Assembly: GCA_903861145.1 (NCBI GenBank)
Contig: CAIOTH010000034.1
Span: 1-64,000, forward strand
Direction: 5' to 3'
DNA length: 64,000 nt
DNA from: an uncultured Bacteroidota bacterium
GTDB taxonomy: Bacteria; Bacteroidota; Bacteroidia; Chitinophagales; LD1
Positions 33,568 through 49,999 of the stretch are shown piece by piece; within the stretch, counting starts at the first letter, position 1; every line of letters starts with the position of its first letter. Made by a program: the position numbers and the translations under genes. The notes under the pieces are model-generated. The model ran no database searches, had not been told where the DNA came from, and saw only the letters and a program-made list of their open reading frames with translations.

Positions 33568-33996
33568 GTAGTTATAACTCATCCAATTTACTAAAAAATG
33601 ACTCAAATATTAAAACCCTGCCCTGTAAACCTCAAACCCGGTATTTTATACTAAAAGGCGAACCTTGTATTATACAATCTATACCGTAATTAATGGGTTA
33701 CGGGTTTTTCTTAAAAATGTTCCAAATAAAGGCACATAAATGCCATTATTATAGAGATGGGTGCCGCAACTGAGGGGTTGCAGCGGCACTTATATCCCAC
33801 TTCAATATTATATTTTACCGGGTTAAATACGACCAAAACGGCAGCCTTTTTCCCAACGCAATTAAGGGGTTGATTAATTTAATATACGCTTATACTTAAT
33901 AATGGAAAACATACCTGTGGTGAAGGAAGACAATCCTAAGATACGGTTTTGTTTTGAAACTTCGAAAACAGCCGCAATATTGGATCCCTTGTGGTA
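33568..33996. other. Gap between the glycan cluster and the giant PKD gene
   Basis: A 429-bp AT-rich gap between two minus-strand genes. A GC-rich hairpin, GTGCCGCAAC then GTTGCAGCGGCAC, lies at 33761-33789 (10 paired bases with a 3-nt bulge). It has no T-run on the minus strand but could mark the end of the upstream glycosyltransferase transcript. A 38-codon frame at 33902-34018 runs into the next gene and does not look real. Confidence 0.4.
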
Positions 33997-35226
33997 TTAT
34001 CTACAAATGCTTTGGTAAATCTTCTTATACTTTTCAACTCCCACAACTAAGCTGTAAATCTGCTCGGCCCTTTGGCGGATATATGTGCTATCGTAAGTTG
34101 TATTTAAAAGCGTGTGTATCGCCTTTTCATATTCTGCATCATTCAGGGTTTTTATCAGCACGCCCGATTTTTCATCTATAATCTCATCCACATCACCCAC
34201 CCCCGCATTGCAAATGTGTGGCATGCCCATACCCATAATTTCGCCCTGCTTGGTAGGGCTACTGGCCGATTTTGAAAATACCGGCTTAATAAAAAATATA
34301 GAGCAATTGGACAGCGCGAGATAGGTTGGTACCTGCTTATGGGGCGCCGGGGTGATGATAAAACAAGCCTCGGGTATGCCCTTGCTTTTGGCCTTTGCTA
34401 AAATATCGCCCGACGCATCGCCGGTAATAAAAAGAAATTTTGCATCGGGTTTTGTGCGTAGCAGGCACTTAAAAAAGTCCAGCATTTCATCCAGCATATA
34501 CCAGGTACCTACACTGCCTAAATAGCTTAGCACAAACTGGTTGTTGGCTAAATTGAATTGCTGTTTTAGCTGCCGTAACAAGCTAACATCAATACTCTTT
34601 TCCGAAAACAAATCAAGGTCGGCGCAGCAGGGTATTACCTCAATAGGTATGGGCTGGTTTTTAATATGCTTCCAGCTGTGTATAATATCCACTCCCTTTT
34701 TGGTGAGGCAAACCGAGTAATCGGCTGCCGAGAAAAAAAGCTCCTCTTTCTTTTTGAAGAATTTATATACCTGTTTAAAAAGAGGATTTGATAAATTCCA
34801 AACACCACCTTCAACTCTTTCATCGGCATAAAAGCCGCGCATATCAAACAGAAATTTTACACTAAATTGCTTTTGCATATCTATACCCACCATGGCCGAT
34901 ATATAACTACGGCAATGCACAATTTTAAATTGCTTTTGATGATGAAGCGCTACCGCCTTTTGTTTCATTTTTTGCAAATCCCAAATGGTGGAAAGCACCG
35001 GTGGCTTTTTGGTGTAAGGTAATGGCTGCCAGCCAATATTGCTTTGTTGTAGCATGGCTGAAATAGCCGCCCGGTTCTTTTCATACCGTTCTGCCTTTTC
35101 AAAACTTATGAGCGTAAAAGCATACCCCAATTTCGAAAGGCCTTGCAGGTATGGTATAACCTGGCTTTGCCCCAAAGGGTCGGTCATACCATCATACGAT
35201 ATGTAAAGCACATTAATTGGCTGCAT
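33997..35226 (-). CDS. GT4-type glycosyltransferase
   Basis: A 409-aa glycosyltransferase of the GT-B fold, family 4 type. N-terminal acceptor half: VLYISYDGMTDPLGQSQVIP, VHCRSYISAMVG, LFDMRGFYADERVEGG. The C-terminal nucleotide-sugar half includes VIPCCADLDLF, NQFVLSYLGSVGTWY, KFLFITGD, a CSIFFIKPVFSKSASSPTKQGE segment (the donor-contact region with its Glu), then MPHICNAGVGDVDEI. It would add a sugar to a lipid-linked or cell-surface glycan. It overlaps asnB by 14 nt, so both are translated from one transcript. It is the last gene of a four-gene minus-strand operon. Confidence 0.85.
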   Translation of the reverse strand: MQPINVLYISYDGMTDPLGQSQVIPYLQGLSKLGYAFTLISFEKAERYEKNRAAISAMLQQSNIGWQPLPYTKKPPVLSTIWDLQKMKQKAVALHHQKQFKIVHCRSYISAMVGIDMQKQFSVKFLFDMRGFYADERVEGGVWNLSNPLFKQVYKFFKKKEELFFSAADYSVCLTKKGVDIIHSWKHIKNQPIPIEVIPCCADLDLFSEKSIDVSLLRQLKQQFNLANNQFVLSYLGSVGTWYMLDEMLDFFKCLLRTKPDAKFLFITGDASGDILAKAKSKGIPEACFIITPAPHKQVPTYLALSNCSIFFIKPVFSKSASSPTKQGEIMGMGMPHICNAGVGDVDEIIDEKSGVLIKTLNDAEYEKAIHTLLNTTYDSTYIRQRAEQIYSLVVGVEKYKKIYQSICR

Positions 35227-37069
35227 GGTCGTTCATCCATTTATGTAACAGCACAAGTGCCCAAATACGGTTATAAAGAAAATCCTCACCTTTTTCGAAA
35301 CGCGCAAGCAATTGCTTCACCTTTTCGGGTTTAACCACCGCACATTTCGCAACTATCTCCTCGTTCAAATACTTTTCAATCAGGTAGTGCAAGTCAGTCT
35401 TTAGCCACTTTACTAACGGGATAGAGAAGCCCCATTTAGGCCTGTCGAAAAATTGGCGGGGTACATAATCATACAATACTTCTTTCAATAAATATTTCGA
35501 AACACCATCCTTCTTCTTCAAATCTTCCGAAAGGTTCAAGGCAAATTCAACAATGCGGTAATCGAGGAACGGCGAACGCGCCTCCAGCGAAAACTGCATA
35601 CTGGCTATATCTACTTTTACCAGCAAATCATCCTTGAGGTAGTATTTAATGTCAAACAGCGCCTGCTCTTCGGCCGCTGAAAGATTACGGACTAGCTTTC
35701 CGAAATTTTCCTCAAAAATTATTTCCGTCGCATATTCAGGCCTTACAATTTCATCCAGCTCATCCTCGCTAAAAAAGTATTGCTCCTGCGAAAAAATGTG
35801 GCTCTTACGGCGCTCATTGGTTTTGAAATTGAAAACTCCGGCACCGCGCTTGTATTTACTACCTGCCTGTGATAAGGCAGCTGCAATAGGTTTGCGTAAC
35901 ATTTGCACCAAAGGGTTGTTCAATCTCTTAGCCCAATCATAAGCACCGTAGCCTAAAAACAGTTCATCGCCGCCATCACCGGTTAAGGTCATAGTAACAT
36001 ATTTTCTGGCCAGCTTTGAAACCAGCATGGTTGGTATACCCGATGAATCTGCGTATGGCTCGTCGTACGCAGTCATCATTTTGTCCATCAGCTCAAGCGC
36101 ATCATTTTCAGTAACAATAAACTCATGGTGTTCTGTACCCAAATGCTCTGACACCTTACGTGCGTACTCCGACTCATTAAACTTAGCCTCCTTAAACCCG
36201 ATTGAAAAGGTTTTAACCGGTTGTTTCGAAATGCTTTGGGCAATGGCGGTAACCGCGCTTGAGTCAATACCCCCGCTTAAAAAAGTACCAAATGGCACAT
36301 CGCTAATCATCCGGTATTTTACCGACGTGGTAAGCAACTCCTTCAACTCCTTTTTAGCGGTATTGAAGTCGCTGGCTACTTGCGGTGTTATTTTTTCCTC
36401 CGGCTTCCAATAGCTTTTTATTTGCATAGTGTTATCCTTAATAACGGCATAACTGCCGGAAGGCAGGCGGTTTATCTGCGCATAAATAGTATGTGGTTCG
36501 GGTATATACCCTGCATATAAAAACGTGCGGATGGCAGGTTTAAAAACACTTAAACTGCTTTTAATTTGAGCTGGTTGAAGCAGCGATTTTATTTCGGACC
36601 CAAAGGCAAAATTGCCATTTTGATGATAGAAATAAACGGGCTTAACCCCCAACCGGTCCCTGAATAAATAAAGCGTGTGTTCAACAATATCGTAAATGGC
36701 TATGGCGAACATGCCATTGAGCAAATGCACAAACTCAACACCTTTTTTTTCAAAGGCTTCTAAAATAATTTCGCTATCGCTGTGGGTGCGCGGTTGTATA
36801 TTTAGCTGCGTTTGTATTTCCTGAAAATTATAAACCTCACCATTAAACACCATAACATACCTGCCACTTTGCGAAAACATAGGTTGGTTGGCAGCAGCAC
36901 TTAAATCGATAATGCTTAACCGGCGATGGCCAAGGCCACAGGTTTGCGCTTCATTCAGGTAAAACCCTGATGCATCGGGCCCGCGATGTTGCATAGCATT
37001 GATTATTTGCTGCAAATCGGCTTGGTTGAAATGCCTGTTGTTAGAGAAAAAGCCTGCAATTCCGCACAT
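35213..37069 (-). CDS. asnB: Asparagine synthetase-like glutamine amidotransferase
   Basis: A 618-aa enzyme that transfers glutamine-derived ammonia to an aspartate or, in glycan clusters, possibly to an acid sugar. The N-terminal Ntn glutaminase domain has catalytic Cys2 (MCGIAGFF), the LGHRRLSIIDLS block, VFNGEVYNF (75-83) and HSDSEII (96-102). The synthetase domain has the ATP-pyrophosphatase loop LSGGIDSSAV (264-273), SIGFKEAKFNESEYAR, and TGDGGDELFLGYGAY. Length and motifs are normal for AsnB. Placement between a WlbA-like dehydrogenase and glycosyltransferases suggests a role in making an amidated surface sugar, as with other asnB copies in O-antigen clusters; ordinary asparagine synthesis is the alternative. 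Confidence 0.9.
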   Translation of the reverse strand: MCGIAGFFSNNRHFNQADLQQIINAMQHRGPDASGFYLNEAQTCGLGHRRLSIIDLSAAANQPMFSQSGRYVMVFNGEVYNFQEIQTQLNIQPRTHSDSEIILEAFEKKGVEFVHLLNGMFAIAIYDIVEHTLYLFRDRLGVKPVYFYHQNGNFAFGSEIKSLLQPAQIKSSLSVFKPAIRTFLYAGYIPEPHTIYAQINRLPSGSYAVIKDNTMQIKSYWKPEEKITPQVASDFNTAKKELKELLTTSVKYRMISDVPFGTFLSGGIDSSAVTAIAQSISKQPVKTFSIGFKEAKFNESEYARKVSEHLGTEHHEFIVTENDALELMDKMMTAYDEPYADSSGIPTMLVSKLARKYVTMTLTGDGGDELFLGYGAYDWAKRLNNPLVQMLRKPIAAALSQAGSKYKRGAGVFNFKTNERRKSHIFSQEQYFFSEDELDEIVRPEYATEIIFEENFGKLVRNLSAAEEQALFDIKYYLKDDLLVKVDIASMQFSLEARSPFLDYRIVEFALNLSEDLKKKDGVSKYLLKEVLYDYVPRQFFDRPKWGFSIPLVKWLKTDLHYLIEKYLNEEIVAKCAVVKPEKVKQLLARFEKGEDFLYNRIWALVLLHKWMNDHAAN

Positions 37070-37108
37070 GGTGGCTAAAATATAAAGAGAAATAGACTTA
37101 AAGCCCGA

Positions 37109-38077
37109 TTATTCCTTGGCAAAGGGATGTGCGGCCGATTTAAGTTTAGCGTATGGATGATAATCGGAGGTTAAACCGATGGGTGTTTGATGCCTGATAG
37201 CATGTGCTATTTGTATGCTGGGCAGTGCTTCGGCAACGCCAAAACCTTTGCCTTTTAAAATTTCTTCATAGCTACGCGTGTGCAGGTCGGCAAAGCCATC
37301 ACTAAACTCAATTTCCTCACCTTCCAACGTCATTGAGCGATAAGTGCGTCCCCCCTTTTGTTTTACAGCTTCGGGTAATGTATCGGCTTCAATACTTAAA
37401 AACCATCTCACCCGCGCCTTCGAAAATTCAAGATACCCGGCAGCACGGTCGTGTGTATGAATATGTACCACGTTCGATTTTACCTCGCCAAACAACCAAT
37501 GCAGCATATCAAAAAAGTGAATGCCAATGTTTGTAGCAATGCCACCCGACTTGGAAACATCACCCTTCCAACTGGTATAATACCAACTACCACGCGAGGT
37601 AATGTAGGTTAAATCGAAATCGTAAATTTTGTCGGCAGGGCTTTTGTCAATTTTCTCCTTTAGCTTAATAATGTTTGGGTGCAAGCGTAGCTGAAGAATG
37701 TTGTTGATTTTATGGCCGGTTTCTTTTTCAAGCTCTATAAGCGCCTCGGCGTTCCAGGGATTAAGCACCAGTGGTTTTTCGCAAATTACGTTAGCCCCGT
37801 TGCGCAACCCAAAACGAATATGCGAATCGTGTAAATAATTGGGTGAGCAGATAGAAACATAATCAACCCCTGCGCCCTTGCGCTTTATTTTGTCAATGTG
37901 CCTGTCAAACCTTTCAAACTCCACAAAAAATGCAGCATCCGGAAAGTAGCTGTCCATTACACCTACACTATCGAAAGGGTCATACGCCGCAAGCAGTTGA
38001 TTGCCGGTATCTTTTATAGCTTTTAAGTGCCGGGGAGCAATGTAGCCCGCTGCACCTATAAGAGCGAATTTCTTCAT
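37109..38077 (-). CDS. Gfo/Idh/MocA sugar dehydrogenase, WlbA/WbpB-like
   Basis: A 322-aa NAD-dependent oxidoreductase. The Rossmann start LIGAAGYIAPRHLKAI (6-21), the YVSICSPNYLHDSHIRFGL block and the catalytic EKP (100-102) are present. The middle has LQLRLHP and YITSRGSWYYTSWKGD, and GGIATNIGIHFFDML holds the conserved GG..xD..H helix. Overall it matches WlbA/WbpB, which oxidises UDP-GlcNAcA at C3 on the way to diacetamido-mannuronic acid sugars of O-antigens. It is 4 nt after the preceding glycosyltransferase, and asnB follows 39 nt later, all minus strand. The exact substrate is inferred from similarity only. Confidence 0.85.
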   Translation of the reverse strand: MKKFALIGAAGYIAPRHLKAIKDTGNQLLAAYDPFDSVGVMDSYFPDAAFFVEFERFDRHIDKIKRKGAGVDYVSICSPNYLHDSHIRFGLRNGANVICEKPLVLNPWNAEALIELEKETGHKINNILQLRLHPNIIKLKEKIDKSPADKIYDFDLTYITSRGSWYYTSWKGDVSKSGGIATNIGIHFFDMLHWLFGEVKSNVVHIHTHDRAAGYLEFSKARVRWFLSIEADTLPEAVKQKGGRTYRSMTLEGEEIEFSDGFADLHTRSYEEILKGKGFGVAEALPSIQIAHAIRHQTPIGLTSDYHPYAKLKSAAHPFAKE

Positions 38078-38081
38078 ATTA

Positions 38082-39365
38082 CTACTTCATATTTTTAAGA
38101 ATGAGATAAAGTTTTTCAGCCTGGTTCTTTCGCGAATATTGCTGAAAATTAACGGTTTCGTTTGGTTTAGCATTTTTATAAACCTTAAACTGCGAAGATA
38201 AAAATGCCGTCGCCGATTCAGCATTTTCCGCAACTGTTCCACCATTTGTTTCCTTCAGTATTTCAGTCATCACATTGGTCTTATTTCCAATCATCAAAAC
38301 AGGCCTCTTTAAAACAAGATAATCAAACAATTTGGCGTTTAACCAACTGTCTGAATTTGAAGTTAATAGCAGCAAAACATGCGAAATGCTTATCTGCTTC
38401 ATTACCTCAAAATAACCGGTTTTATTATGCAGGTGCACATACTTTTGCAGCACCGGGTTGTAGTTCATAATGCGGGTAATGGCGCTGGGATCAGCTTCAA
38501 TGCCCCAAAAATGCATTTCAAACTCTTCGGGCGTAACCATGCTCTCACTTATAAATTTAACTGCGCCTTCTAAAAACACCTCTAATCGTTGCATAGGATA
38601 GATGTGCCCTGCGTACGAAACCACAAATTTTTGGGTGGATGGAAGAATGCCCTTAACCTGCTCTTCAATATCATCGTCATAACCGTTGTATACAATCTTA
38701 ATGTTATCGTGCTTTACAAATGGCGGCATAACTTTAACCATCGAGGGGGCAACTGTTGTTATTAACGAGGAGCTTGAGACATATTTCCTTTCAACTAGTT
38801 TGTAAAAGCTGTTTAAAATAAAACTTAATGGGCCTAAAGAGTAATCGCTTTGATTGTGGTTGAGGGTCCAGCTGTCTCTGTAATCGGCTATCCACGGCGT
38901 TTTATATTTTTTAGATAACAAGGCCGCGTAACGAAATAAAATAAAGGGCTTACCCGAAGCAATTATCATATCAAATTTTTCGTGCTTTAATAACTCATCA
39001 GCTGCAACATAAAGTTCTGCTTTCGAGTCAAATCGTAAACTCAAAAACTCCAGAAAACTGAATAGGTAGGTAACTACCTGGCGTAATCTTCTCACCTTAT
39101 CACTTTGCAGCTTAGCCGCAATACGGTCTTTAATAGCAGGTGTAAATCGTACCTTTATAAGCGTTTTGTTTTTCTGCCTTTCGGTAACGCTTTTTGGTTG
39201 AATTTCGGTTTGATTAGCACCTGATGACTGGTCAAGTTCCCAATCGCGGGTAATTACGGTGGTATCTACATCAAACCCAGGCAGGTATTTATACCAACTG
39301 TAAGGCCTCAGCCCCCCGATGGAGATGAACGGCGGAAAATCATAAGCTAGAATAAGAATCTTCAT
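38082..39365 (-). CDS. GT4-like glycosyltransferase
   Basis: A 427-aa GT-B glycosyltransferase, started at MKILILAYDFPPFISIGGLR (ATG at 39365; the extra 19 codons upstream do not look like coding). The N-terminal half has YSWYKYLPGF, WIADYRDSW, and FDMIIASGKPF. The donor half has KFVVSYAGHIYPMQRLEVFL and HVLLLLTSNSDSWLNAKLFDYLVLKRPVLMIG, the usual E/D-x-x-x region replaced by a KLFDYL segment. It is the first gene of the four-gene minus-strand operon ending with the GT4 enzyme at 33997. The sugar and acceptor are unknown. Confidence 0.8.
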   Translation of the reverse strand: MKILILAYDFPPFISIGGLRPYSWYKYLPGFDVDTTVITRDWELDQSSGANQTEIQPKSVTERQKNKTLIKVRFTPAIKDRIAAKLQSDKVRRLRQVVTYLFSFLEFLSLRFDSKAELYVAADELLKHEKFDMIIASGKPFILFRYAALLSKKYKTPWIADYRDSWTLNHNQSDYSLGPLSFILNSFYKLVERKYVSSSSLITTVAPSMVKVMPPFVKHDNIKIVYNGYDDDIEEQVKGILPSTQKFVVSYAGHIYPMQRLEVFLEGAVKFISESMVTPEEFEMHFWGIEADPSAITRIMNYNPVLQKYVHLHNKTGYFEVMKQISISHVLLLLTSNSDSWLNAKLFDYLVLKRPVLMIGNKTNVMTEILKETNGGTVAENAESATAFLSSQFKVYKNAKPNETVNFQQYSRKNQAEKLYLILKNMK

Positions 39366-39502
39366 GGATGAAATTCGGAACGCAGCTAATGTAAAAACTT
39401 TTTGAAGGAGTATAGATGGCATTACCGGTATTTACTGTTGGCGCCGACGATTATTCAACCGCCTGTTTTCGGCGCTTCGCTTTTACGAACTATTAAATAC
39501 AT

Positions 39503-39533
39503 TTTGACCCGAAGCCCAATTTGTATAATATTG
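39503..39533 (+). promoter_or_regulatory. Bacteroidota-type promoter for the ATP-grasp/phosphatase gene
   Basis: TTTG at 39503-39506 and TAATATTG at 39526-39533 are separated by 19 nt, close to the -33/-7 consensus TTTG...TAnnTTTG of Bacteroidota sigma factors. It would start transcription near 39540, about 38 nt before the ATG. Confidence 0.6.
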
Positions 39534-39577
39534 ACGGTAGATAAGGGAACCATTAAAGCCCATCAAAGATTTAAATA

Positions 39578-41221
39578 ATGCCTAATATAATAGTAATTGG
39601 CTCCTCTACCAAATCGGCGGCATATACAATTAAACAATTAAGCATGTACGGATTAAATGTAACGGTATATGCGTGGCTTGATTCACCCCTCAGGCATTCA
39701 AAATACGTCAATAAATACATTTTGGCGCAGTCTCCTGACCGGGATGTGAAGGCTTTTGCCGATGGGCTATTAAAGTATCTTGAATTAAACAAGATAGATT
39801 GCCTGCTTGCTATAAACGACCAGGCCCTTGAGATTTGCAAATTATATTACGACCAGCTTTCGAATTACACTAAAATAATAGGCATTAACCACTCATTTAC
39901 CGATGAATATGCGCATAGTAAATATGAGTTAATAAAGGTAGCTGCGCCGCTGGGTATTAAATCGCCCGATACAATTTTAATAAGCCAGCTAAGCGATGTG
40001 GAGGGCCGGCGCAACGAATTTACTTTCCCTTGTATTGTAAAGCCGGCGAGCACCAATATTTTAAAAGACAACCACCTTTTTTACTTCCGGGTAAGTAGAG
40101 TTAATAGCTACGAGCAATTGGTTGACTATGTGCGCGAGCATGTAAGCAACGTAAATATCCTGGTGCAGAAAATCATTCCCGGCTATGGCATTGGCTATAA
40201 TATTATAGCGAAAGATGGCGAGGTTTTAAATGAGTACATACACCGCAGGTTGCACGAATATATTGGCGAGAGCACCTACCGCGAATCGGTTTCGGTAGAA
40301 GAGTATGGGTTAAAGGAAAAAGCCCATGCCCTGATAAAAAAGATAAACTGGAATGGAGTTGCCATGTTGGAGTTTAGGATTGACGGAAACGATGCCTACA
40401 TTATGGAAATAAATGGCCGCTTTTGGGGCTCAATCGAGGTTTCGGTAAGGTGCGGGCTTAACTACCCGGTGCAGTTGTACGAGATGCAGTATTTGAACAA
40501 GGAAATTGAAAGGGGCTTACCGGTAAAGCATGTTAGGGTAAGAAATTTAAAGGAAGAGATAATCAATAACATACGATATGTTGTTCAGCAAAAAAGCCTT
40601 AAAAACCTGTTTAAATGGTTTGGAACTTTAAAGGGTGTATTTGCCAGTAATGAGTTTATTGAGGACAATGTTTTTGACGACCCTAAATTTGTTTTGGCTT
40701 GCTACTATTACAGCATAAAGTTAGTTTGGAGTAGGGTGGTTGATGAGTTAGGTTTAAAAAGCGTATCAATAGCGAAACACCAGGCGCCGGTGGCAGAAAA
40801 AAATCTTGTTATTGCATTTGCCTGCACCGGCAATATATGCCGTAGCCCTTTTGCCGAGTACTATGCGCGCAAATTTAATCCGCAACATTCCTATTTTTCT
40901 TTTGGCATTTCTACAGTCGATAACCGGCTTAGCCCGGTTAATGCCGTTAATGCAGCAGCGCAAATGGGAGTCGATATCTCCAATTTTTCATCAAGGTCAT
41001 TTGATAAGCAGCAGGTAGAGGGGGCAGATTATATTTTTGTGATGGATAGGCTCAACTTTTATAACCTTAGGCAAAAAGGAATTGATGAGAAGAAAATTTT
41101 CTTTTTGGATGAAATTGAAATAGCAGACCCTTACGGAAAACCGGTTGAGGAATTTAGTAAGGCTTACCAGCAAATAATTAAATGCATCGAGCAAAAATTA
41201 CCGGTACACCAGGCAAATTAA
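39578..41221 (+). CDS. Fusion of ATP-grasp ligase and low-molecular-weight tyrosine phosphatase
   Basis: A 547-aa two-domain protein. Residues 1-330 are an ATP-grasp carboxylate-amine ligase: N-terminal Rossmann-like IIVIGSSTKSAAYTIKQL, the phosphate-binding FPCIVKPAST, and the metal-binding MEINGRFWGS with Glu277 and Asn279. A helical linker (335-400) follows. Residues 406-547 are an LMW protein tyrosine phosphatase with the P-loop Cys416-TGNIC-Arg422-SP and the catalytic acid Asp517 in ADPYG. In other systems LMW-PTPs control capsule tyrosine kinases (Wzb/Wzc pairs), so a role in glycan control or amino-acid decoration is plausible but unproven. It sits inside the polysaccharide cluster, converging (4-nt overlap) with a deacetylase gene. 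Confidence 0.85.
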   Translation: MPNIIVIGSSTKSAAYTIKQLSMYGLNVTVYAWLDSPLRHSKYVNKYILAQSPDRDVKAFADGLLKYLELNKIDCLLAINDQALEICKLYYDQLSNYTKIIGINHSFTDEYAHSKYELIKVAAPLGIKSPDTILISQLSDVEGRRNEFTFPCIVKPASTNILKDNHLFYFRVSRVNSYEQLVDYVREHVSNVNILVQKIIPGYGIGYNIIAKDGEVLNEYIHRRLHEYIGESTYRESVSVEEYGLKEKAHALIKKINWNGVAMLEFRIDGNDAYIMEINGRFWGSIEVSVRCGLNYPVQLYEMQYLNKEIERGLPVKHVRVRNLKEEIINNIRYVVQQKSLKNLFKWFGTLKGVFASNEFIEDNVFDDPKFVLACYYYSIKLVWSRVVDELGLKSVSIAKHQAPVAEKNLVIAFACTGNICRSPFAEYYARKFNPQHSYFSFGISTVDNRLSPVNAVNAAAQMGVDISNFSSRSFDKQQVEGADYIFVMDRLNFYNLRQKGIDEKKIFFLDEIEIADPYGKPVEEFSKAYQQIIKCIEQKLPVHQAN

Positions 41222-42216
41222 ACCGGCCTGTATTTTCTTAAATTGCTTTGCAACTCTTCAATCCTAAGTATCATATCCTGCTGCGGCTCAGAAATTAAGT
41301 TTAACCGCGATAAAAATGTCATTCCCTCAGCCATATTTTTCATATAAGAGTGCTCACCAATACCCAGAACATATTTATAACCCGCTAACGAGGCCTTCTT
41401 TAAAACAGCATCATCGCACAAACCATTCGGCGGGGCCAGTATGGAAATCTTCCTTCCCATATTTTTTTCTATCTCAGCTTTTGATTCAACAAGCTCTTCG
41501 CCCATTTCCGCTTCACTTTTAATGCTGGTTAAAACGCAATGCCGTTTTGTATGCGAGCCGAACGTTACACCATGTTTGGCGCACTCATTTATTTCAGCCC
41601 AATTCATCATTCTTTTGGGGATAATCTTAAGATTAAACTTCGTGAGCCAGGCATCCAATACCGTTTCACGGTCATTGTGTTCCAGCTCAAATAGCTTTTT
41701 AAGGATGGTTATATAAAAACCGTCTAATGTTGATTGGTACTGCTTTAAAGAATAATCTACTCCTCCCAACTGGAGCAGATCATCTGGTTTCTTTTCTACA
41801 AAATAATTGAACAAAAAATTCAGCTTTTCTGTCCAGATTACGCCCTGTTTGCCATTTACAATATCAGTTACAACATTGTGATTGGAAGGCAACGAGTAAT
41901 GTTTGATTACCGGTAAAACATTGGAATAAAAGTCGTAGTAGCCATCGTCAAAGCTTAAAATCAACCTTGGCTTTTTACCCGGGTTGCTGTGAACATCGTC
42001 AACCGAAATCACTTCATAATGCTTCAAAACATATTGAATAAGCTGCTCGAACCTTTCAGGCTTAATAGGGTCAAAAAAATGGTCGTTGTCGCTCGATATT
42101 CTGTGCAGGCATAGGGTTGTAATGCGGCCTTCGCGGTGCTTTTTATTTCTGAGCCTTCCCTGCACATCAATAAAATACAAGGATTTAAACACCGCAGCCT
42201 TTAAAAGATTTCGCAT
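41218..42216 (-). CDS. NodB-type polysaccharide deacetylase
   Basis: A 332-aa carbohydrate esterase family 4 enzyme, expected to remove N-acetyl groups from a glycan using a metal ion. Motif 1 is LSFDDGYYDF (Asp90, Asp91); motif 2 is GSHTKRH (His222 and His226). A C-terminal ILAPPNGLCDDAVLKKAS segment matches the late NodB motif, though with PPN in place of the usual RxPY/F. The N-terminus is helical, without a clear signal peptide, so it may act in the cytoplasm on a lipid-linked intermediate. Its stop overlaps by 4 nt that of the ATP-grasp/phosphatase gene. Confidence 0.85.
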   Translation of the reverse strand: MRNLLKAAVFKSLYFIDVQGRLRNKKHREGRITTLCLHRISSDNDHFFDPIKPERFEQLIQYVLKHYEVISVDDVHSNPGKKPRLILSFDDGYYDFYSNVLPVIKHYSLPSNHNVVTDIVNGKQGVIWTEKLNFLFNYFVEKKPDDLLQLGGVDYSLKQYQSTLDGFYITILKKLFELEHNDRETVLDAWLTKFNLKIIPKRMMNWAEINECAKHGVTFGSHTKRHCVLTSIKSEAEMGEELVESKAEIEKNMGRKISILAPPNGLCDDAVLKKASLAGYKYVLGIGEHSYMKNMAEGMTFLSRLNLISEPQQDMILRIEELQSNLRKYRPV

Positions 42217-42349
42217 AACAAACCTGGATTGTAGCGTTTTTGACCCGATACTACAATGTGAATTTAAGGAAATAACTTTCCACTATGCTTAATGGTTGTG
42301 TTTTGAAACCAAAAACAACGGCATCAATCCGGTTGTTTTCAATGGTTAA

Positions 42350-42381
42350 TTTGCATTGGGCGTAGGTCAATAGTAACTATG
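42350..42381 (+). promoter_or_regulatory. Probable promoter of the GT4 gene at 42483
   Basis: TTTG at 42350-42353, 20 nt, then TAACTATG at 42374-42381 (one mismatch to TAnnTTTG). Transcription would start near 42388 and leave a leader of about 95 nt. A hairpin with AAAACAAC/GTTGTTTT arms lies just upstream (about 42310-42340). Confidence 0.45.
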
Positions 42382-42482
42382 TCTTTTTTTAATCTGAAAA
42401 CTTTCAGATAATTTGCCGCTGACAATAACAACTTTTAAAGGCACGTGCCTGTTAAACTAATGCCCCAATAAAGGAATTTATA

Positions 42483-43742
42483 ATGCCCAACAGCCCAAGA
42501 ACGCTGATTTTTTTGACAGATTCTTTCCCATTCGGAAGTGCTGAGACTTTTATTGAAAATGAGTTCCCGTTTTTGGTTGAATCGTTTGACCGGATATTTA
42601 TTATAACGGTAAACCTGGTTGATGAAAAAACAAGAAATATCCCTGACAATATTGAAATAATAAGGATACCCTTTAAGCCATCATTTAAGTATAAGGTGTT
42701 ATCACTGCTCAATTATTTTAATCCTATTATACAAAGGGAATTACAACTGATAAAGGATGAATTTTTATTAAAACCTAACAAGGAGGTTTTATATGTTTTG
42801 CTGGCAAGTTATGCTAAAGCCCTTGAGGTAAATGATTTGTTGAATGATTTGGTATCGAAACACCAAATTGATAAGAGCGGGCTTTACCTATACTCATATT
42901 GGATGAACGATGTTACATCCGGCATCGCTTTATTTAGAAGTAAAAACCCTGAAGTAAAAGCTATTTGCAGGGTGCACCGGTGGGATGTTTATTTTGAAAC
43001 CCAAACCCCGCCTTACCTGCCGCTACGAAATTTTATGATTGAAGCATTGGATATGGTGTATTGCATATCGTTAGATGCCCTGGGCTACCTGGAAAAGCTT
43101 ACCAATGGGCGTGCCGATCATCATTTAACGCTTTCTCGCCTCGGTACTTTTAATCGTGAAAAAATTAAAACCTTACCCAATCAGGGCTTTCTGCGCATTA
43201 TCAGCTGCTCAAACCTGATACCACTAAAGCGGGTGCATTTAATTATTGAGGCGCTGGCCCTTATTGATGATATAAAAATTGACTGGCGGCATTTTGGAAA
43301 AGGCCCGCTTGACCGTGAATTGAAAAAGCTAGCAGCTGAAAAGCTGTCATCTAAAGCCAATATTGAATACACCTTTGCAGGGCAGATTAGCAATACTGAA
43401 ATACTACAGTTTTATAAAAACAACAAGGTTGATTTGTTTATTAATGTCAGTGAAACCGAAGGCATCCCGGTTTCAATTATCGAGGCAAACTCATTTGGCA
43501 TTGCTGTTATTGGTACCTTAGTTGGAGGGGTGGGTGAGATATTACAGGAAGGGGAAAACGGCTTTTTGCTTAAGCAGAGCTGCTTACCAAGGGATATTTC
43601 GGACGCTATAGTAAAGTTTTACCGGCTTGATGAAAGCGAAAAGCAAAGGATAAGAGAAAATGCAGTTTTAATTTGGGAACAGAATTATAGCGCCGAAAGG
43701 AATTATCGCGATTTTCTTGATTCAGTTCTCTCTTTAACCTAA
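42483..43742 (+). CDS. GT4-type glycosyltransferase
   Basis: A 419-aa glycosyltransferase. The N-terminal half begins RTLIFLTDSFPFGSAETFIE, typical of Bacteroidota GT4 enzymes. The acceptor half has SGLYLYSYWMNDVTSGIALF and CRVHRWDVYFE. The donor half has FLRIISCSNLIPLKRVHLIIEAL and DLFINVSETEGIPVSIIEANSFGIAVIGT, containing the EGIPVSIIEA donor-binding loop with its ExE-like glutamates. It would extend a surface glycan. Its stop overlaps by 4 nt the stop of the opposing GT4 gene. Confidence 0.9.
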   Translation: MPNSPRTLIFLTDSFPFGSAETFIENEFPFLVESFDRIFIITVNLVDEKTRNIPDNIEIIRIPFKPSFKYKVLSLLNYFNPIIQRELQLIKDEFLLKPNKEVLYVLLASYAKALEVNDLLNDLVSKHQIDKSGLYLYSYWMNDVTSGIALFRSKNPEVKAICRVHRWDVYFETQTPPYLPLRNFMIEALDMVYCISLDALGYLEKLTNGRADHHLTLSRLGTFNREKIKTLPNQGFLRIISCSNLIPLKRVHLIIEALALIDDIKIDWRHFGKGPLDRELKKLAAEKLSSKANIEYTFAGQISNTEILQFYKNNKVDLFINVSETEGIPVSIIEANSFGIAVIGTLVGGVGEILQEGENGFLLKQSCLPRDISDAIVKFYRLDESEKQRIRENAVLIWEQNYSAERNYRDFLDSVLSLT

Positions 43743-44977
43743 CCTGTTCGGTAAAGACTGATTAGTTTATCGGCGTAAGATTCAATGTCATATTTTTTAG
43801 CAAAGGCCACGGCATTTGTGGACATGGCAGCATAAGTGTTTTTATCGCCAACAACCTTTTCAATAGCATCAACAAACTCCTCGGGGTTTTGCTGGTATAT
43901 CATATAACCGTTTTTGCCGGCTTTAATTAAATCCCGGTTTCCTTTGCCATCAAGTGTTACAACCGGCAGGCCGCTTGCCATAGCCTCTAAAAGCACCAAG
44001 CCAAAAGGTTCGTAAGTAGCCACGTGCACATACACGTTTGCGTCGGCGTAATAATCAGCTACGTTAACTTTGTTGCCCGGCATTAAAACCACATTCTCTA
44101 AATTATTGGCCTTTACTTTAGCTTTAACTTTATCAAAATCATAGCTCTCGCCAAGCATAATAATTTCGAACGGCAGGTTTCTTTTTTGTAAAGCAAGGGC
44201 AACATCAACCAAAAATTGCTGATTCTTTTTGGACAGAAAAGTGCCAACGTTTACTATGCGTATTTTGCTCAAATCCCTTTCTTTCCCGGCACCATGAAAG
44301 TTTTTGGTTACAATGGCATTATCAAGCGGGTAAATATCTTCGGCTAGTTTGTGCGGCAGCACTGTTTCAAAATATTGAGTGGTATCAGCCGAAATGGATA
44401 TAAAACGGTTATCGCATTGCAGGTACCTTTTTACCAGGTGTTGTTTTTCGTAAAAATCGGTAAGCAGGTTTTTATGCAGCAAGGTTTGCAGCGAAAAATT
44501 ACGCAGCTGCGGCATGTTATCGTGGCAATGCGTAAAGTATTTAATACCCGGAAAAATGACTTCGTGGGTTATTAATTCAGCAATAAATAAATTAGAGTGG
44601 ACGATGTGTGGCTTAAACTCATTTACAATTTGTGTAAAATGGCCTAGGTCAACGTTGTTTGGTTTTGTAACCGAAAGATTGACATACGAATCGCAGTTGC
44701 AGAAATCGGGGTCTTTCAACAAAATCTCTTCCAGGTGGGTGCTGTCGTTAATAGTTCGGTCGAAGGCTTTTTGAAACGTTACCAACTTAACATGAATATC
44801 AGGCCGACGTTTTAGCTCATTGAAGATATTAAACACCAACGACTCGGCGCCTCCTCCATGTGTCATGGTGTTGGCGGTTAATAAAACTCTTAATCTTTCG
44901 TTTTCAGAAGTACTCAATGTAGCCGGGTTTGTGCCAAATTTAAATGGCTTTTTTAAACGGTAACGAATTTCAGTCAC
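43739..44977 (-). CDS. GT4-type glycosyltransferase
   Basis: A 412-aa glycosyltransferase. N-terminal half: LRVLLTANTMTHGGGAESLV (glycine-rich loop), then FKPHIVHSNLFIAELITHE. Donor half: KIRIVNVGTFLSKKNQQFLVDV, FEIIMLGESYDFDKVK, and VYVHVATYEPFGLVLLEAMASGLPVVTLDGKG, the classical EPFGLVLLEA loop with the two catalytic-site glutamates. It lies 8 nt overlapping and downstream of the deacetylase gene at 44970, indicating a two-gene operon in which deacetylation and glycosyl transfer are coupled. Confidence 0.92.
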   Translation of the reverse strand: MTEIRYRLKKPFKFGTNPATLSTSENERLRVLLTANTMTHGGGAESLVFNIFNELKRRPDIHVKLVTFQKAFDRTINDSTHLEEILLKDPDFCNCDSYVNLSVTKPNNVDLGHFTQIVNEFKPHIVHSNLFIAELITHEVIFPGIKYFTHCHDNMPQLRNFSLQTLLHKNLLTDFYEKQHLVKRYLQCDNRFISISADTTQYFETVLPHKLAEDIYPLDNAIVTKNFHGAGKERDLSKIRIVNVGTFLSKKNQQFLVDVALALQKRNLPFEIIMLGESYDFDKVKAKVKANNLENVVLMPGNKVNVADYYADANVYVHVATYEPFGLVLLEAMASGLPVVTLDGKGNRDLIKAGKNGYMIYQQNPEEFVDAIEKVVGDKNTYAAMSTNAVAFAKKYDIESYADKLISLYRTG

Positions 44978-45968
44978 TAGTCTTAATGGCAGTAAATAAC
45001 TGGTTCAGGCAAGTATCAATGGTATAAATACCATTTCGCTTTTTAATATCGGGGTTATCGGGTTTTTCATTAAAAAGAAAATGATCGGCGGCAAGCTGAA
45101 CATTAAAACCCATTTGCTTTGCCGAGGTTAAAAGTGCTGGGGTGTAAGAGCCATCGGGATATGCTATTTCCCTGACTTCATATTGAACAAGGTTTTCCAA
45201 ATACTTTTTCGAACGGCTCACTTCATCCAATGCTTTGTCGTGGGCAATTGTGCCAAGGTTGTTGTGGTAGTAGCCATGCGAACCTATTTTAATGAATGCT
45301 GAATGCGACGTTTCAGCAATTTGTTGATCACTCATCAACTGCCAGTATTCTTTTATAGCGGGTTCATTTTCGAAAGAGACATATTTGCCAAAAGCATCTT
45401 TTACCTTTAGTTTATAACTGTAATCAGCTTTTTGATGTTTAATAACCTCGTACAGCGATTTGCCCGAAAACTTAGAAAAATAGGTGTTCCCCTGCTTTTT
45501 GAACTGCTCGCCCTCAACTTCTACTTCCTTATCGGTTAGTACGCTGGCAATATTTACGTAATCGGCCCATAACATATTGTCGCCAACCTCATTAAGCCCT
45601 GTAATGAAGAATGTTGCCGGGCATTTAAACTCCTCTAATATGGGCTTGGCGTTAGCAAAGTTGTTGAGGTAGCCATCGTCAAAAGTGAGTGCGAAGTTAG
45701 GCTTGCCCGAAACGAATTTGCCCTCAAAAAAATCACTCAGGCTTATAACGGCACAGTATTTTTTCAGAAACTTAATTTGGTTGGTAAAGCAGGCAACAGA
45801 TGCATGCCGACGGTTAAAACGGGTGCTCCCGGTGGCACTCACCCCGTGGTACATAAGTATGTAATTCCCATCAATTTGGCCGGCTATCAACCCACCCATA
45901 AACGAACCACCAATTTGTTCGGTAAGGACGCGCTTTGCTTTTGAAACAACTTTGGCGGTAATGCTCAT
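44970..45968 (-). CDS. NodB-type polysaccharide deacetylase
   Basis: A 332-aa CE4 enzyme. Motif 1 is ALTFDDGYLNNF (Asp97, Asp98); motif 2 is IGSHGYYHNNL (His231, His235); motif 3 is REIAYPDGSY; the N-terminal YILMYHGVSATG block is also typical. The chain has an extra helical insert (residues about 130-210) between motifs 1 and 2. There is no clear signal peptide. Its relative at 41218 has the same length but only distant similarity; together they suggest two distinct de-N-acetylation steps in the cluster. It is the first gene of an operon with the GT4 gene at 43739. Confidence 0.88.
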   Translation of the reverse strand: MSITAKVVSKAKRVLTEQIGGSFMGGLIAGQIDGNYILMYHGVSATGSTRFNRRHASVACFTNQIKFLKKYCAVISLSDFFEGKFVSGKPNFALTFDDGYLNNFANAKPILEEFKCPATFFITGLNEVGDNMLWADYVNIASVLTDKEVEVEGEQFKKQGNTYFSKFSGKSLYEVIKHQKADYSYKLKVKDAFGKYVSFENEPAIKEYWQLMSDQQIAETSHSAFIKIGSHGYYHNNLGTIAHDKALDEVSRSKKYLENLVQYEVREIAYPDGSYTPALLTSAKQMGFNVQLAADHFLFNEKPDNPDIKKRNGIYTIDTCLNQLFTAIKTSD

Positions 45969-46258: not shown

Positions 46259-49200
46259 ATGTTTAAAAAAGCTACCTATCTCACTTTAGTAATCGCACTT
46301 TTTTCGGTTAAACTATTTGCCCAGTGTTCTTCAACCAACTTTGGCACAAGCCAGGTTATTAGCACCAATACCAGCTGGAATGCCGGAACTTATAACATAA
46401 CAGGCGATTTTACCGTTAACGCGGGCGTAACACTTACCGTTAATTATAATGGTAATTGTCCTTTAACCATTAACGCTACCAACATTAATATTTTAGGAAC
46501 TATCAATGCCAACGGAACAGGTTATGTTGGTGGTGCCGGTGGTGCCGGTGGCAGCAGTTCGGGCGGCGGCGGCGGCAGCGAGGCCGGCGGTGGAGTAGGT
46601 GGAGTATTAGGCGGCGGTACCGGCGGCGGTGCCCATGGCAATAACGGTAGCAGCGCTACCGGCGGTTGCAGCATTAATTGCGGAACTATATGTATAGGTG
46701 GTAATGATGCTGACCGCGCAGGTGGCGGTGGCGGCGCAGGTGGTGCAGGTGGCTCGTTTGGCGCGCGCGGTGGTAGCGGAGGAGCAGGAGCCTTAGGAAG
46801 AATAGATAATGAACCTAGTAATTCAAGATGTGGTTCAACACCGGTGGGCGGTGGCGGTGGAACTGCAAATGCAAGCCCTGTGGGTTATAGCAATACAGCA
46901 ACTACGGTCGATTTGCCTGTAGGTTCGGGCGGCGGTGGCGGCGGTGGCGGCGGCGGCGGCTTTAATGCCGGCACTGCGGGCGCAGCGGGTGGTAACGGTG
47001 GTGGCACCGTTAACCTTAACGCTACCGGTAACCTGGTGGTTAGCGGTACAATTACGGCCAACGGAACTTCAGGCGGTAATGGTGGAAACGGTGGTGTTCG
47101 CTCGGGCGGTCTTGCAAATTGGAATTGTGAAGCTTGCGCTAACGGAAATGGTGGTGGTGCAAACGATTGCCGTGATGCCAGCCAATGTGGAGTTTGTACC
47201 TATTACACCTGGGTATGGGCCGGTGGTGCCGGCGGTGGTGCCGGTGGTGGATCGGGTGGTGGTATTAAATTAGAGGCTACCGGTGGCATGACAGTTACCG
47301 GCGTATTACAAGCTAACGGCGGTGCCGGTGGTAATGCAGGGCACGGCAACACTGCCGACGGAAGCTGCAACAATTATGCAAGCGGTGGTGCAGGTGGCGG
47401 CGGTGGAGTTATTAAGTATGTTTATGACCCATGTGCCAATAACACTTTCACCCCTTCACAAATTCAATCTAAAGCAGGTGTTGCCGGCGTTGGAACAGAT
47501 GGAACCGGTAGCGCAAACCCCGGCGATAGCGGCGTTATTTTTAACGAAATAGCTAACATATATGTACCGGGCTTTGCACCATTTACTGCGTTGACCGCCT
47601 ATCCAAGCCAGGTGCTTTGCGGTTTGGGCCATACACCAAACACCCTTAATACTTATTCAGTTACCGGTGGCGGAGGAACTTATGTTTATCAATGGTTCTC
47701 GTCAACTACTAATCCGGTTGGTCAAACAGGGGCGGCAACCGGTCCGGCTACCGGTTGGGCTGCGTTCTCGGGTGCCACGGCATCTTCTTTACCGGGCGCT
47801 TCAATTGGGTCTTTAAACACTACTACTTATTACCAATTGCAAATACAATCGGGTCCATGTACAACATGGTCTAACGTGGTTACGGTGTTGGTTGACTCTA
47901 TTCCTTCGGTTACCAATGTTGTTGTTAGTGATGTGTTGTGTAATGGAGGCAGCACGGGCACTATTACAGTTACTGCTGCAGGTGGTGTACCTGGTTATAA
48001 ATACTCGTCTGATGGAAGTAGTTATTTCCCGAGCAATATATTAACCGGCCTTAACCGTGGGAGTTATAATGTGTATGTAAGCGATACTAACAACTGTTCA
48101 GCTCCATATGCCCTGAACCCAGTAATTGTTAGTGAGCCGGCCTTACTTACATTTACCGACGTAGCCGTGCAGCCAAACTGTTCGGGTTTATCAAATGGGT
48201 CAATTACTATTAATGCTGCGGGTGGTATAACGCCTTACCAGTATGCTATTAATGCCGGTAACAATCAAACCAATAGCGCATTTATCGGCCTTGCAGCAGG
48301 TAATTATCTTGTATTGATAATAGACGCAAACGCCTGTCCTGATACGGCTACAATTGTACTAAGTAACCGATATATACTTTCGCTGGCTATTGATACCCAA
48401 ACCAGCACCTCGTGCTTTGATGTAAGCGATGGCACGGTTACCTTAGCGGCAAGCGGTGGTATTAATCCATTTACTTATTCTATTGATGGAACAACTTTCC
48501 AATCCTCAGATACGTTTAGCGCTCTGGCAGGTGGCTATTATGTTGCCACTGTTCACGATTCAGCGGGTTGTGCTAATCAATTAAACCTGCAAATTAACCA
48601 GGCAGCACAAATGACTGTACAAATTGAGGCACTGGTAAACATTCCTTGTAACAACTCAGCACCGGGTGCGGCTTACATATCACCATTAGGCGGAACTGCG
48701 GCGTATACTTACTCATGGAGTAACGGTGATACCACGCAGAACGAAACATCGCTTACCCTGGGCGCCTATACTGTTACTATTACCGATGTGCATTCATGCT
48801 CGGCCACAACCGGCATTAATATTACTTACGACCCATCGCCGGTTACAACTATTTCAACTACCGATGTGATTGGTTGTTTTGGCAATACTAATGGTAGTGC
48901 ATCGGTTGCAGTTACCGGTGGCTCTTTACCATACGTTTACCAATGGAGCAATGGTGCGGTTACTGATTCTATTTCGAATGTTACCGGTGGGGTTTATATC
49001 CTTACCGTTTCTGACCTTAACTACTGCACCAGTATTGATACGGTTGTAATTCATCAACCTGCCGCTTTGCTTGCTAATCTTGATACGGTTGCCCCTCAAT
49101 GTTACGGGCTGAGCAATGGTATGGCGGGTGTAAGCCCTGCGGGTGGCACTCCGGGTTATGTTATTGCCTGGTCAACTACTTCTAATGCTGATACTATTGT

Positions 49201-49999
49201 AAACCTGGCAACAGGCCCATATTCAGTTACCATTACTGATGCCAATAACTGCTCAGCAATTTCAAGCTTTAACTTAAGCCAACCCGATGCGCTTAATGGC
49301 AGTTTAACCAGCGCCAACGATTCATGCTACGGCAGCCCGAATGGTAGTGCAGCACTTGCGGTTACCGGTGGCGTATTGCCTTATACCTATATGTGGAGCA
49401 ACGGTGCCACTACAGAAGTTATCGGCAATTTAACGGTGGGCAGCTACACAGTAATGTTGAGTGATGCTAATGGCTGTAATTTGGCCGATACAGTTAACAT
49501 TACACAACCGGCCCAACTAACCTTTACTGCTTCGGAAACCGATGCTACGGGCAGCCTGGATAACGGCACTGCCAGCGTAAGCAATATTAGCGGAGGCGTG
49601 GCCCCATACAACATTCGTTGGAGTAACGGGCAGGGAACAAACACTATCAATAACCTTGCAGCAGGCGCCTATATCGTTATTGTTTCTGATCAAAACGGTT
49701 GCGAGCGTGCCGATACGGTTATTGTAAACCAATTGGTAGGTGTAAATATGGTGCAGGGCGATATTCCTTTCAGTATTTATCCTAACCCGGCTAATACAGC
49801 GTTTACTATTGAATTGTCGGATTTGAAAAAGGAAACGACCTTAAATATTAAAAATGTTTTGGGCCAATCGGTTTTATCTAAAGTAATAACCACACTTAAA
49901 ACCAGGGTTGACTTAACTGACTTTGCAGGTGGCGTTTACCTGATTGAATTAAGCCAGGGCGACACTAAAACCACCAAACAAGTGGTTGTATCTAAGTAA
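46259..49999 (+). CDS. Gly-rich SprB-repeat adhesin with T9SS sorting domain
   Basis: A 1246-aa secreted protein. A signal peptide (1-21, ending KLFAQ) is followed by a beta-rich segment (TFNITGDFTVN-like, about 40-85) and a very Gly-rich region (about 88-400) with GGAGGAGGSSSGGGGGS-type runs and some cysteine-bearing loops. An Ig-like domain lies near 440-545. From about 553 to 1160 there are seven clear SprB-type repeats and one worn copy, each with a C[FNY]G...G start and a Y.WSNG..T..I.NL..G.Y.V.V.D.N.C end. A type A sorting domain (FSIYPNPANTAFT) closes the chain from about 1169. SprB repeats occur in gliding adhesins, but motility genes are not seen here, so a general adhesin role is safer. 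Confidence 0.88.
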   Translation: MFKKATYLTLVIALFSVKLFAQCSSTNFGTSQVISTNTSWNAGTYNITGDFTVNAGVTLTVNYNGNCPLTINATNINILGTINANGTGYVGGAGGAGGSSSGGGGGSEAGGGVGGVLGGGTGGGAHGNNGSSATGGCSINCGTICIGGNDADRAGGGGGAGGAGGSFGARGGSGGAGALGRIDNEPSNSRCGSTPVGGGGGTANASPVGYSNTATTVDLPVGSGGGGGGGGGGGFNAGTAGAAGGNGGGTVNLNATGNLVVSGTITANGTSGGNGGNGGVRSGGLANWNCEACANGNGGGANDCRDASQCGVCTYYTWVWAGGAGGGAGGGSGGGIKLEATGGMTVTGVLQANGGAGGNAGHGNTADGSCNNYASGGAGGGGGVIKYVYDPCANNTFTPSQIQSKAGVAGVGTDGTGSANPGDSGVIFNEIANIYVPGFAPFTALTAYPSQVLCGLGHTPNTLNTYSVTGGGGTYVYQWFSSTTNPVGQTGAATGPATGWAAFSGATASSLPGASIGSLNTTTYYQLQIQSGPCTTWSNVVTVLVDSIPSVTNVVVSDVLCNGGSTGTITVTAAGGVPGYKYSSDGSSYFPSNILTGLNRGSYNVYVSDTNNCSAPYALNPVIVSEPALLTFTDVAVQPNCSGLSNGSITINAAGGITPYQYAINAGNNQTNSAFIGLAAGNYLVLIIDANACPDTATIVLSNRYILSLAIDTQTSTSCFDVSDGTVTLAASGGINPFTYSIDGTTFQSSDTFSALAGGYYVATVHDSAGCANQLNLQINQAAQMTVQIEALVNIPCNNSAPGAAYISPLGGTAAYTYSWSNGDTTQNETSLTLGAYTVTITDVHSCSATTGINITYDPSPVTTISTTDVIGCFGNTNGSASVAVTGGSLPYVYQWSNGAVTDSISNVTGGVYILTVSDLNYCTSIDTVVIHQPAALLANLDTVAPQCYGLSNGMAGVSPAGGTPGYVIAWSTTSNADTIVNLATGPYSVTITDANNCSAISSFNLSQPDALNGSLTSANDSCYGSPNGSAALAVTGGVLPYTYMWSNGATTEVIGNLTVGSYTVMLSDANGCNLADTVNITQPAQLTFTASETDATGSLDNGTASVSNISGGVAPYNIRWSNGQGTNTINNLAAGAYIVIVSDQNGCERADTVIVNQLVGVNMVQGDIPFSIYPNPANTAFTIELSDLKKETTLNIKNVLGQSVLSKVITTLKTRVDLTDFAGGVYLIELSQGDTKTTKQVVVSK

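Follow-up and report, generated by a model that had tools for sequence, protein, structure and literature searches.

Surface proteins are attached to glycans via modified sugars, the synthesis of which is known in a few species only. In Porphyromonas gingivalis, T9SS cargo is joined to LPS by a linking sugar, 2-N-seryl, 3-N-acetylglucuronamide, for which VimE has been proposed as a deacetylase and VimA as the protein adding serine (PMC7468200). The role of WbpS in the same species was shown by deletion, and the protein was placed with the eps_aminotran_1 (TIGR03108) family, which converts uronic acids into uronamides; similar gene sets occur in exosortase loci (PMC7468200). According to a 2025 study, Prevotella intermedia uses an N-alanyl sugar despite lacking both VimA and VimE (PMC11969387).

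Here, we describe a protein composed of an ATP-grasp ligase and a low-molecular-weight tyrosine phosphatase (LMW-PTP), encoded by a 64,000-nucleotide stretch of DNA from an uncultured Bacteroidota bacterium (contig CAIOTH010000034.1, assembly GCA_903861145.1; referred to as the window). The family of each half is known, and the fused architecture is present unremarked in public genomes. An initial annotation, made from the sequence alone, had regarded this combination as undescribed, and our literature search, outside which most subscription journals lay, likewise found no published description of a ligase-phosphatase fusion.

Results

Domain architecture of the fusion protein

The fusion gene (39578–41221, forward strand) starts with ATG and encodes 547 amino acids in one uninterrupted frame. 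The initial annotation had assigned an ATP-grasp domain and an LMW-PTP to this single open reading frame, and both were confirmed by Pfam matches above cut-off: ATPgrasp_Ter (PF15632) at residues 193–325 (E = 1.1e-9, 38.6 bits vs. a cut-off of 29.1) and LMWPc (PF01451) at residues 412–539 (E = 1.5e-18, 67.8 bits vs. 23.2). When compared with NCBIfam models, the first half fell into the group of PRK12767 ('carbamoyl phosphate synthase-like'), whereas the second half resembled Wzb-like phosphatases, in both cases below equivalog cut-offs. The ATP-grasp part spans residues 1 to about 395 (39578–40762), and the PF01451-type domain residues 409–547 (40802–41218). Since residues 358–390 (EDNVFDDPKF...), located before the phosphatase, are similar to the tail at the C-terminus of unfused ligases of this family, the ligase part is, as judged from its sequence, a whole solo-type protein, and the phosphatase appears to have been joined onto a complete ligase.

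The catalytic residue sets of both halves are intact. An alignment of six fusions (see below) revealed that the predicted ATP-binding and metal residues K115, K155, E265, E277, N279, and R281 are invariant, the last three being part of the metal-site motif MEINGRFWGS (40403–40432), in which W283 and G284 are likewise unchanged in all six proteins. The same holds for C416, G418, N419, I420, R422, and P424 of the P-loop CTGNICRSP (C416–P424; 40823–40849), where residue 423 is either serine or threonine, and for D517-P518 of the general-acid loop (41126–41131). Thus, the five residues singled out by the initial annotation (E277, N279, C416, R422, and D517) are located where it had placed them and do not vary among the fusions. 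The linker is the least conserved stretch, with 49% identity to the closest fusion (L013) vs. 62–67% in the rest of the protein. The differences between these two genes amount to 0.58 at codon position 3 vs. 0.24–0.27 at positions 1 and 2, in both domains. The structure predicted from the window and L013 sequences was poor (mean pLDDT 41), and scans for promoters and terminators around the fusion gene gave signals at shuffle level only.

With respect to the class of the phosphatase half, a profile search indicated the protein-tyrosine phosphatase 7dhd, Wzb, and AmsI as the nearest solved structures. Weak matches to ArsC models and to YwlE were also obtained, but the Wzb/AmsI-type enzymes scored far better. 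In the phosphatase tree, the fused clade adjoins Wzb/Etp-type enzymes, and the ArsC-like sequences form a separate branch. We take Ile420 together with D517-P518-Y519 to be a pTyr-type pattern, rather than that of the arginine phosphatase YwlE, the isoleucine presumably occupying the position of YwlE Thr11.

Distribution and phylogeny of the fusion

A database search for the same two-domain architecture retrieved five further full-length fusions with 25–63% identity to the window protein. Bacteroidota genomes other than that of the window account for four of them, and plasmids of Vibrio alfacsensis for the fifth. The closest one, L013, derives from a Bacteroidetes metagenome-assembled genome (63% identity; the same contig is found in G780), and it is followed by those of G022 (39%), G377 (32%), and G783 (29%). 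The Vibrio protein, present on three plasmids (25% identity, 99% query coverage), is annotated merely as 'ATP-grasp domain-containing protein'. The architecture is rare: a class-level sample contained it in at least 3 of 395 genomes (those of the window, G022, and G377), and in a sample spread evenly over the phylum the window's own fusion was the only one among the candidates scored. No relative of the fusion was found in a scan of viral contigs, and phage records gave single-domain matches only, with no full fusion among them. Two further loci, L014 and L015, were rejected as chance matches, the matched stretch belonging to an open reading frame that, by our own reading, is UDP-GlcNAc 2-epimerase-like.

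The six fusions group together in the tree of the phosphatase half (support 95/74). In that of the ligase half, all six lie to the same side of a branch with 89/87 support when one long-branched outgroup is left out, whereas with that outgroup included the Vibrio ATP-grasp half groups with it. Both trees taken together lend moderate support to one old fusion event.

Genomic setting of the fusion gene

The fusion gene is a part of a glycan cluster extending from about 33997 to 45968, which also encodes four GT4-like glycosyltransferases, an AsnB-like amidotransferase, a Gfo/Idh/MocA sugar oxidoreductase, and two NodB-type polysaccharide deacetylases; the surface-glycan context noticed in the initial annotation is real. 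Upstream of the fusion, all genes are on the reverse strand, namely a GT4 glycosyltransferase (33997–35226), the AsnB-like amidotransferase (35213–37069), the best model for which is the TIGR03108 XrtA amidotransferase (512 bits, below the cut-off of 817), the sugar oxidoreductase (37109–38077), and a GT4-like glycosyltransferase (38082–39422) that is divergent from the fusion and matches PF13439 weakly (27.2 bits vs. a cut-off of 28.5). Downstream, a deacetylase gene (41218–42216, reverse strand; PF01522, E = 8e-19) is convergent with the fusion gene and overlaps it by 4 bp, and beyond it lie two GT4 glycosyltransferases (42483–43742, forward, and 43739–44977, reverse) and the second deacetylase (44970–45968, reverse). 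The three GT4 enzymes, the oxidoreductase, and the second deacetylase were assigned by family profile matches. The window deacetylases match PgaB/PdaB models, not VimE. Neither VimA nor WbpA/B/D/E was detected among the nine cluster proteins scanned, and scans of cluster proteins likewise gave no BY-kinase, Wza, or Wzz; a BY-kinase of 822 amino acids is encoded on another contig of the same genome.

Both edges of the cluster are occupied by genes of putative T9SS cargo with a C-terminal sorting domain (PF18962), a large PKD-repeat protein on the left (27982–33606, reverse strand; E = 1.2e-6) and a SprB-repeat protein on the right (46259–49999, forward strand; E = 8.5e-14). Cargo genes of this kind account for 4 of the 51 open reading frames of the window, as counted with a profile to which these same proteins had contributed, and they are also found at the cluster edge in G022 and G377. 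As such genes are common, their position is only suggestive. The PorU sortase was present in all 20 Bacteroidota genomes tested (full-length in the window's genome, G000, and in 19 others), which is a necessary condition only. Further to the right, the window encodes a protein in which collagen triple-helix repeats are combined with an Lcl C-terminal domain (51199–53025) and, about 7 kb beyond the cluster, a tyrosine recombinase (53197–54402; Arm-DNA-bind_5, phage integrase) that may mark a mobile element.

A deacetylase gene adjacent to the fusion or one gene off was found in four loci (the window, L013, G022, and G377), and the one in L013 is an orthologue of, and has the same position as, the window gene at 41218–42216; the GT4-like gene at 38082–39422 also has its orthologue in the same place in L013 (E = 2e-147). 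A TIGR03108-like AsnB gene lies near the fusion in the window, G022, and G377, and none was present in the regions examined of G783 and L013. The Vibrio plasmid with the fusion also carries a full XrtA locus, and on pVa1 an XrtA-associated tyrosine autokinase is encoded about 27 kb from the fusion. Genes of FkbM-type methyltransferases were observed beside two fusions, in G022 (L006, 594–1484; co-directional and overlapping, confirmed by Pfam) and in G783 (L041, 5649–6368; convergent, assigned by similarity to the G022 protein). In Vibrio, the fusion gene overlaps at its end, by 4 bp, with the gene of a 335-amino-acid protein (L016, 16722–17729), which matched none of the families searched; its identification by eye as a deacetylase was supported neither by profile comparison nor by family scans.

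Phosphatase genes beside unfused ligases

We surveyed the neighbours of 16 unfused ATP-grasp relatives in Bacteroidota loci and compared them with those of the six fusions. In 14 of the 16 unfused loci, the gene of a phosphatase of a different fold was directly adjacent to the ligase gene. It was a PHP gene, often with overlapping ends, in 12 cases (L042–L050, L053, L054, and L071), and a PgpA-family gene in two (L052, 6014–6472, and L072, 7808–8317, the latter with a 4-bp overlap). In L051, a HAD gene is located two genes away, and L073 is the only one of the 16 loci with no phosphatase neighbour. No PHP gene was found in any of the six fusion loci, each represented by 6.8 to 64 kb of DNA, so that PHP adjacency differs between the two groups (12/16 vs. 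0/6; Fisher p = 0.003, or 0.015 with near relatives collapsed). The PHP/PgpA pairing also exceeds chance under a 0.5% adjacency rate, which is our own estimate. In the ligase trees, fused and PHP-linked ligases form separate clades. As L072 (PgpA) and L051 (HAD) are nested inside the PHP-linked clade, the partner phosphatases seem to have been swapped and to be exchangeable by function.

Pairing with PHP is not confined to Bacteroidota. In the archaeon Natribaculum, the genes of a deacetylase, a PHP protein, and an ATP-grasp protein are consecutive and overlapping. No PHP neighbour was present in the other haloarchaeal relatives examined, and among eight plasmid-borne relatives, seven of them haloarchaeal, one had such a neighbour. 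The genome of the window itself contains a paralogous module on contig C134 (L042, 6481–11515), composed of an AsnB-like protein, a DUF7033 deacetylase, a solo ATP-grasp protein, and a PHP protein; the deacetylase resembles the VimE model NF053580 (E = 1.3e-12), though far below its cut-off.

CpsB is a PHP enzyme. The PHP neighbours described here, however, match TrpH/CehA-type models and not the CpsB model, and for this reason we no longer counted the pairing with PHP in favour of a tyrosine phosphatase. PgpA belongs to a lipid-phosphate phosphatase family and is, to our knowledge, not known as a protein-tyrosine phosphatase or any other protein phosphatase. Phosphatases of at least three unrelated folds take the position next to the ligase, which speaks for a small molecule as the phosphatase substrate.

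Discussion

ATP-grasp enzymes couple a carboxylate to an amine via an acyl phosphate. We propose, with a probability of roughly 0.4, that the fusion catalyses two steps in the synthesis of surface-glycan precursors: its ligase half would acylate a sugar amine, and its phosphatase half would remove a phosphate. In such a pathway, the neighbouring deacetylase would free the sugar amine, and the ATP-grasp part would activate a carboxylate as an acyl phosphate and join it to an amine, most likely the one so released. The fused LMW-PTP would take a phosphate monoester off a substrate or product within this pathway; it could do so, for instance, once a phosphorylated acid (such as phosphoserine or phosphoglycerate) has been ligated. 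The AsnB-like neighbour would amidate a uronic acid. The product would probably be an acylated amino-sugar (uronamide) similar to the linking sugar of the Wbp/Vim pathway, to which a sortase could attach surface proteins. Here we infer the ligase chemistry, the phosphatase substrate, the identity of the sugar, and the tie to cargo anchoring. The proposal is based on the following observations: (i) the catalytic sets are invariant in six fusions down to 25% identity, (ii) unfused relatives pair with other phosphatases, while the fusion loci show no PHP gene, (iii) the deacetylase and AsnB setting is shared among fusions, (iv) the partner phosphatases of the PHP-linked clade seem exchangeable, (v) Natribaculum has consecutive deacetylase, PHP, and ATP-grasp genes, (vi) the deacetylase of the paralogous module weakly resembles VimE, and (vii) PorU is present in the 20 Bacteroidota genomes tested and a full XrtA locus on the Vibrio plasmid. 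Several observations speak against it: because the ligases with a fused phosphatase and those linked to PHP belong to different clades, it is only by analogy that LMW-PTP may fill the role of PHP; most plasmid-borne relatives have no PHP neighbour, and L073 has no phosphatase neighbour; the phosphatase half most resembles Wzb/AmsI; and the regions examined of G783 and L013 contain no AsnB gene near the fusion.

The initial annotation had left open whether the fusion is a control switch or a coupled modification step. The pairing with phosphatases in 14 of 16 unfused loci speaks for the coupled step, and the switch is less favoured, though still a serious competitor. In such a switch, the Wzb-like half would dephosphorylate tyrosines of a BY-kinase, glycan enzymes, or the attached ligase, and it is plausible, but not favoured, that ligase activity would in this way depend on how far the export machinery is phosphorylated. 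The close relation of the phosphatase half to 7dhd, Wzb, and AmsI, its place next to Wzb/Etp-type enzymes in the tree, and the presumed pTyr-type pattern (Ile420, D517-P518-Y519) are all consistent with a switch, as are the BY-kinase elsewhere in the window's genome and the XrtA tyrosine autokinase on pVa1. However, the cluster proteins scanned included no BY-kinase, Wza, or Wzz, and the unfused relatives, one archaeal pair among them, are accompanied by TrpH/CehA-type PHP, PgpA, or HAD genes, of which the PHP genes fail the CpsB model and PgpA, as far as we know, is no protein phosphatase. These findings suggest that the fused phosphatase half carries out a reaction of the pathway itself and does not serve for regulation alone.

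A looser arrangement, in which the two halves share the cluster and a membrane or complex location, act on independent substrates, and are fused for the sake of co-expression, is in our opinion improbable; the poorly conserved linker may allow the domains to move independently, but a common pathway is indicated by the fact that deeply diverged proteins have kept the fusion and that unfused relatives are repeatedly paired with phosphatases. A function unrelated to glycans, as an arginine phosphatase or an arsenate-reductase-like enzyme, is very unlikely for the phosphatase half, because the ArsC and YwlE matches on which this idea is based are weak and far outscored by Wzb/AmsI-type enzymes, the ArsC-like sequences branch separately, and isoleucine is found at what we take to be the position of YwlE Thr11. 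As the genome containing the window is a draft in 174 contigs, we also considered a frameshift, a chimeric assembly, or a chance join. The initial annotation had named a sequencing or assembly error between the domains as a possible flaw, yet the chance of any such artefact is negligible in view of independent full-length copies in five other genomes, complete Vibrio plasmids included, the conserved end of the linker, and the coding-type codon-position pattern in both halves.

A conserved ligase-phosphatase pair next to deacetylase and amidotransferase genes is a concrete candidate for another route to linking sugars. A broader view is rather doubtful, in which a family of ATP-grasp ligases would use a phosphorylated acid to make the acylated sugar joining sorted proteins to surface glycans, and the necessary dephosphorylation would be carried out by at least three unrelated folds (PHP, PgpA, and LMW-PTP), in one lineage by fusion; if true, linking sugars could be made independently of VimA, and a Wzb-like phosphatase would have a role in metabolism. 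A practical caution is that an LMW-PTP encoded among glycan genes may have a function other than tyrosine signalling.

Compared with known systems, the fusion shares its whole ligase part, including the C-terminal tail, with solo PRK12767/ATPgrasp_Ter (PF15632) proteins, often annotated 'carboxylate--amine ligase', which likewise often have a deacetylase and an AsnB-like gene nearby; these relatives differ in having no LMW-PTP and, in Bacteroidota, in being mostly located beside a PHP, PgpA, or HAD gene. With Wzb/AmsI-type enzymes, the window protein has in common the fold family, the P-loop CxGNICRSP, and the acid loop DPY. Those enzymes, however, are normally free proteins whose genes neighbour those of a BY-kinase and an export protein (L105 and L107 are examples), whereas the window protein is fused to a ligase in a cluster with no kinase among the proteins scanned. 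The setting of the fusion, with a sugar deacetylase and an AsnB-like protein, resembles the Wbp/Vim linking-sugar pathway of P. gingivalis and, in Vibrio, an exosortase locus. The former likewise combines a deacetylase, a TIGR03108-type amidotransferase, and an expected amine-acylating enzyme, though in the window the deacetylases match PgaB/PdaB models and the TIGR03108 match is below cut-off, and the likeness extends to the PorU sortase of the window's genome and the T9SS cargo genes flanking the cluster. VimA, in contrast, is a GNAT-type transferase, no phosphatase has been described in that pathway, and the ATP-grasp/phosphatase fusion would stand in VimA's place. XrtA/PEP-CTERM exopolysaccharide loci also contain an amidotransferase, a deacetylase, and glycosyltransferases, and the Vibrio fusion shares its plasmid with such a locus; that locus, however, has its own FemAB-type protein, and the fusion stands outside the described XrtA gene set.
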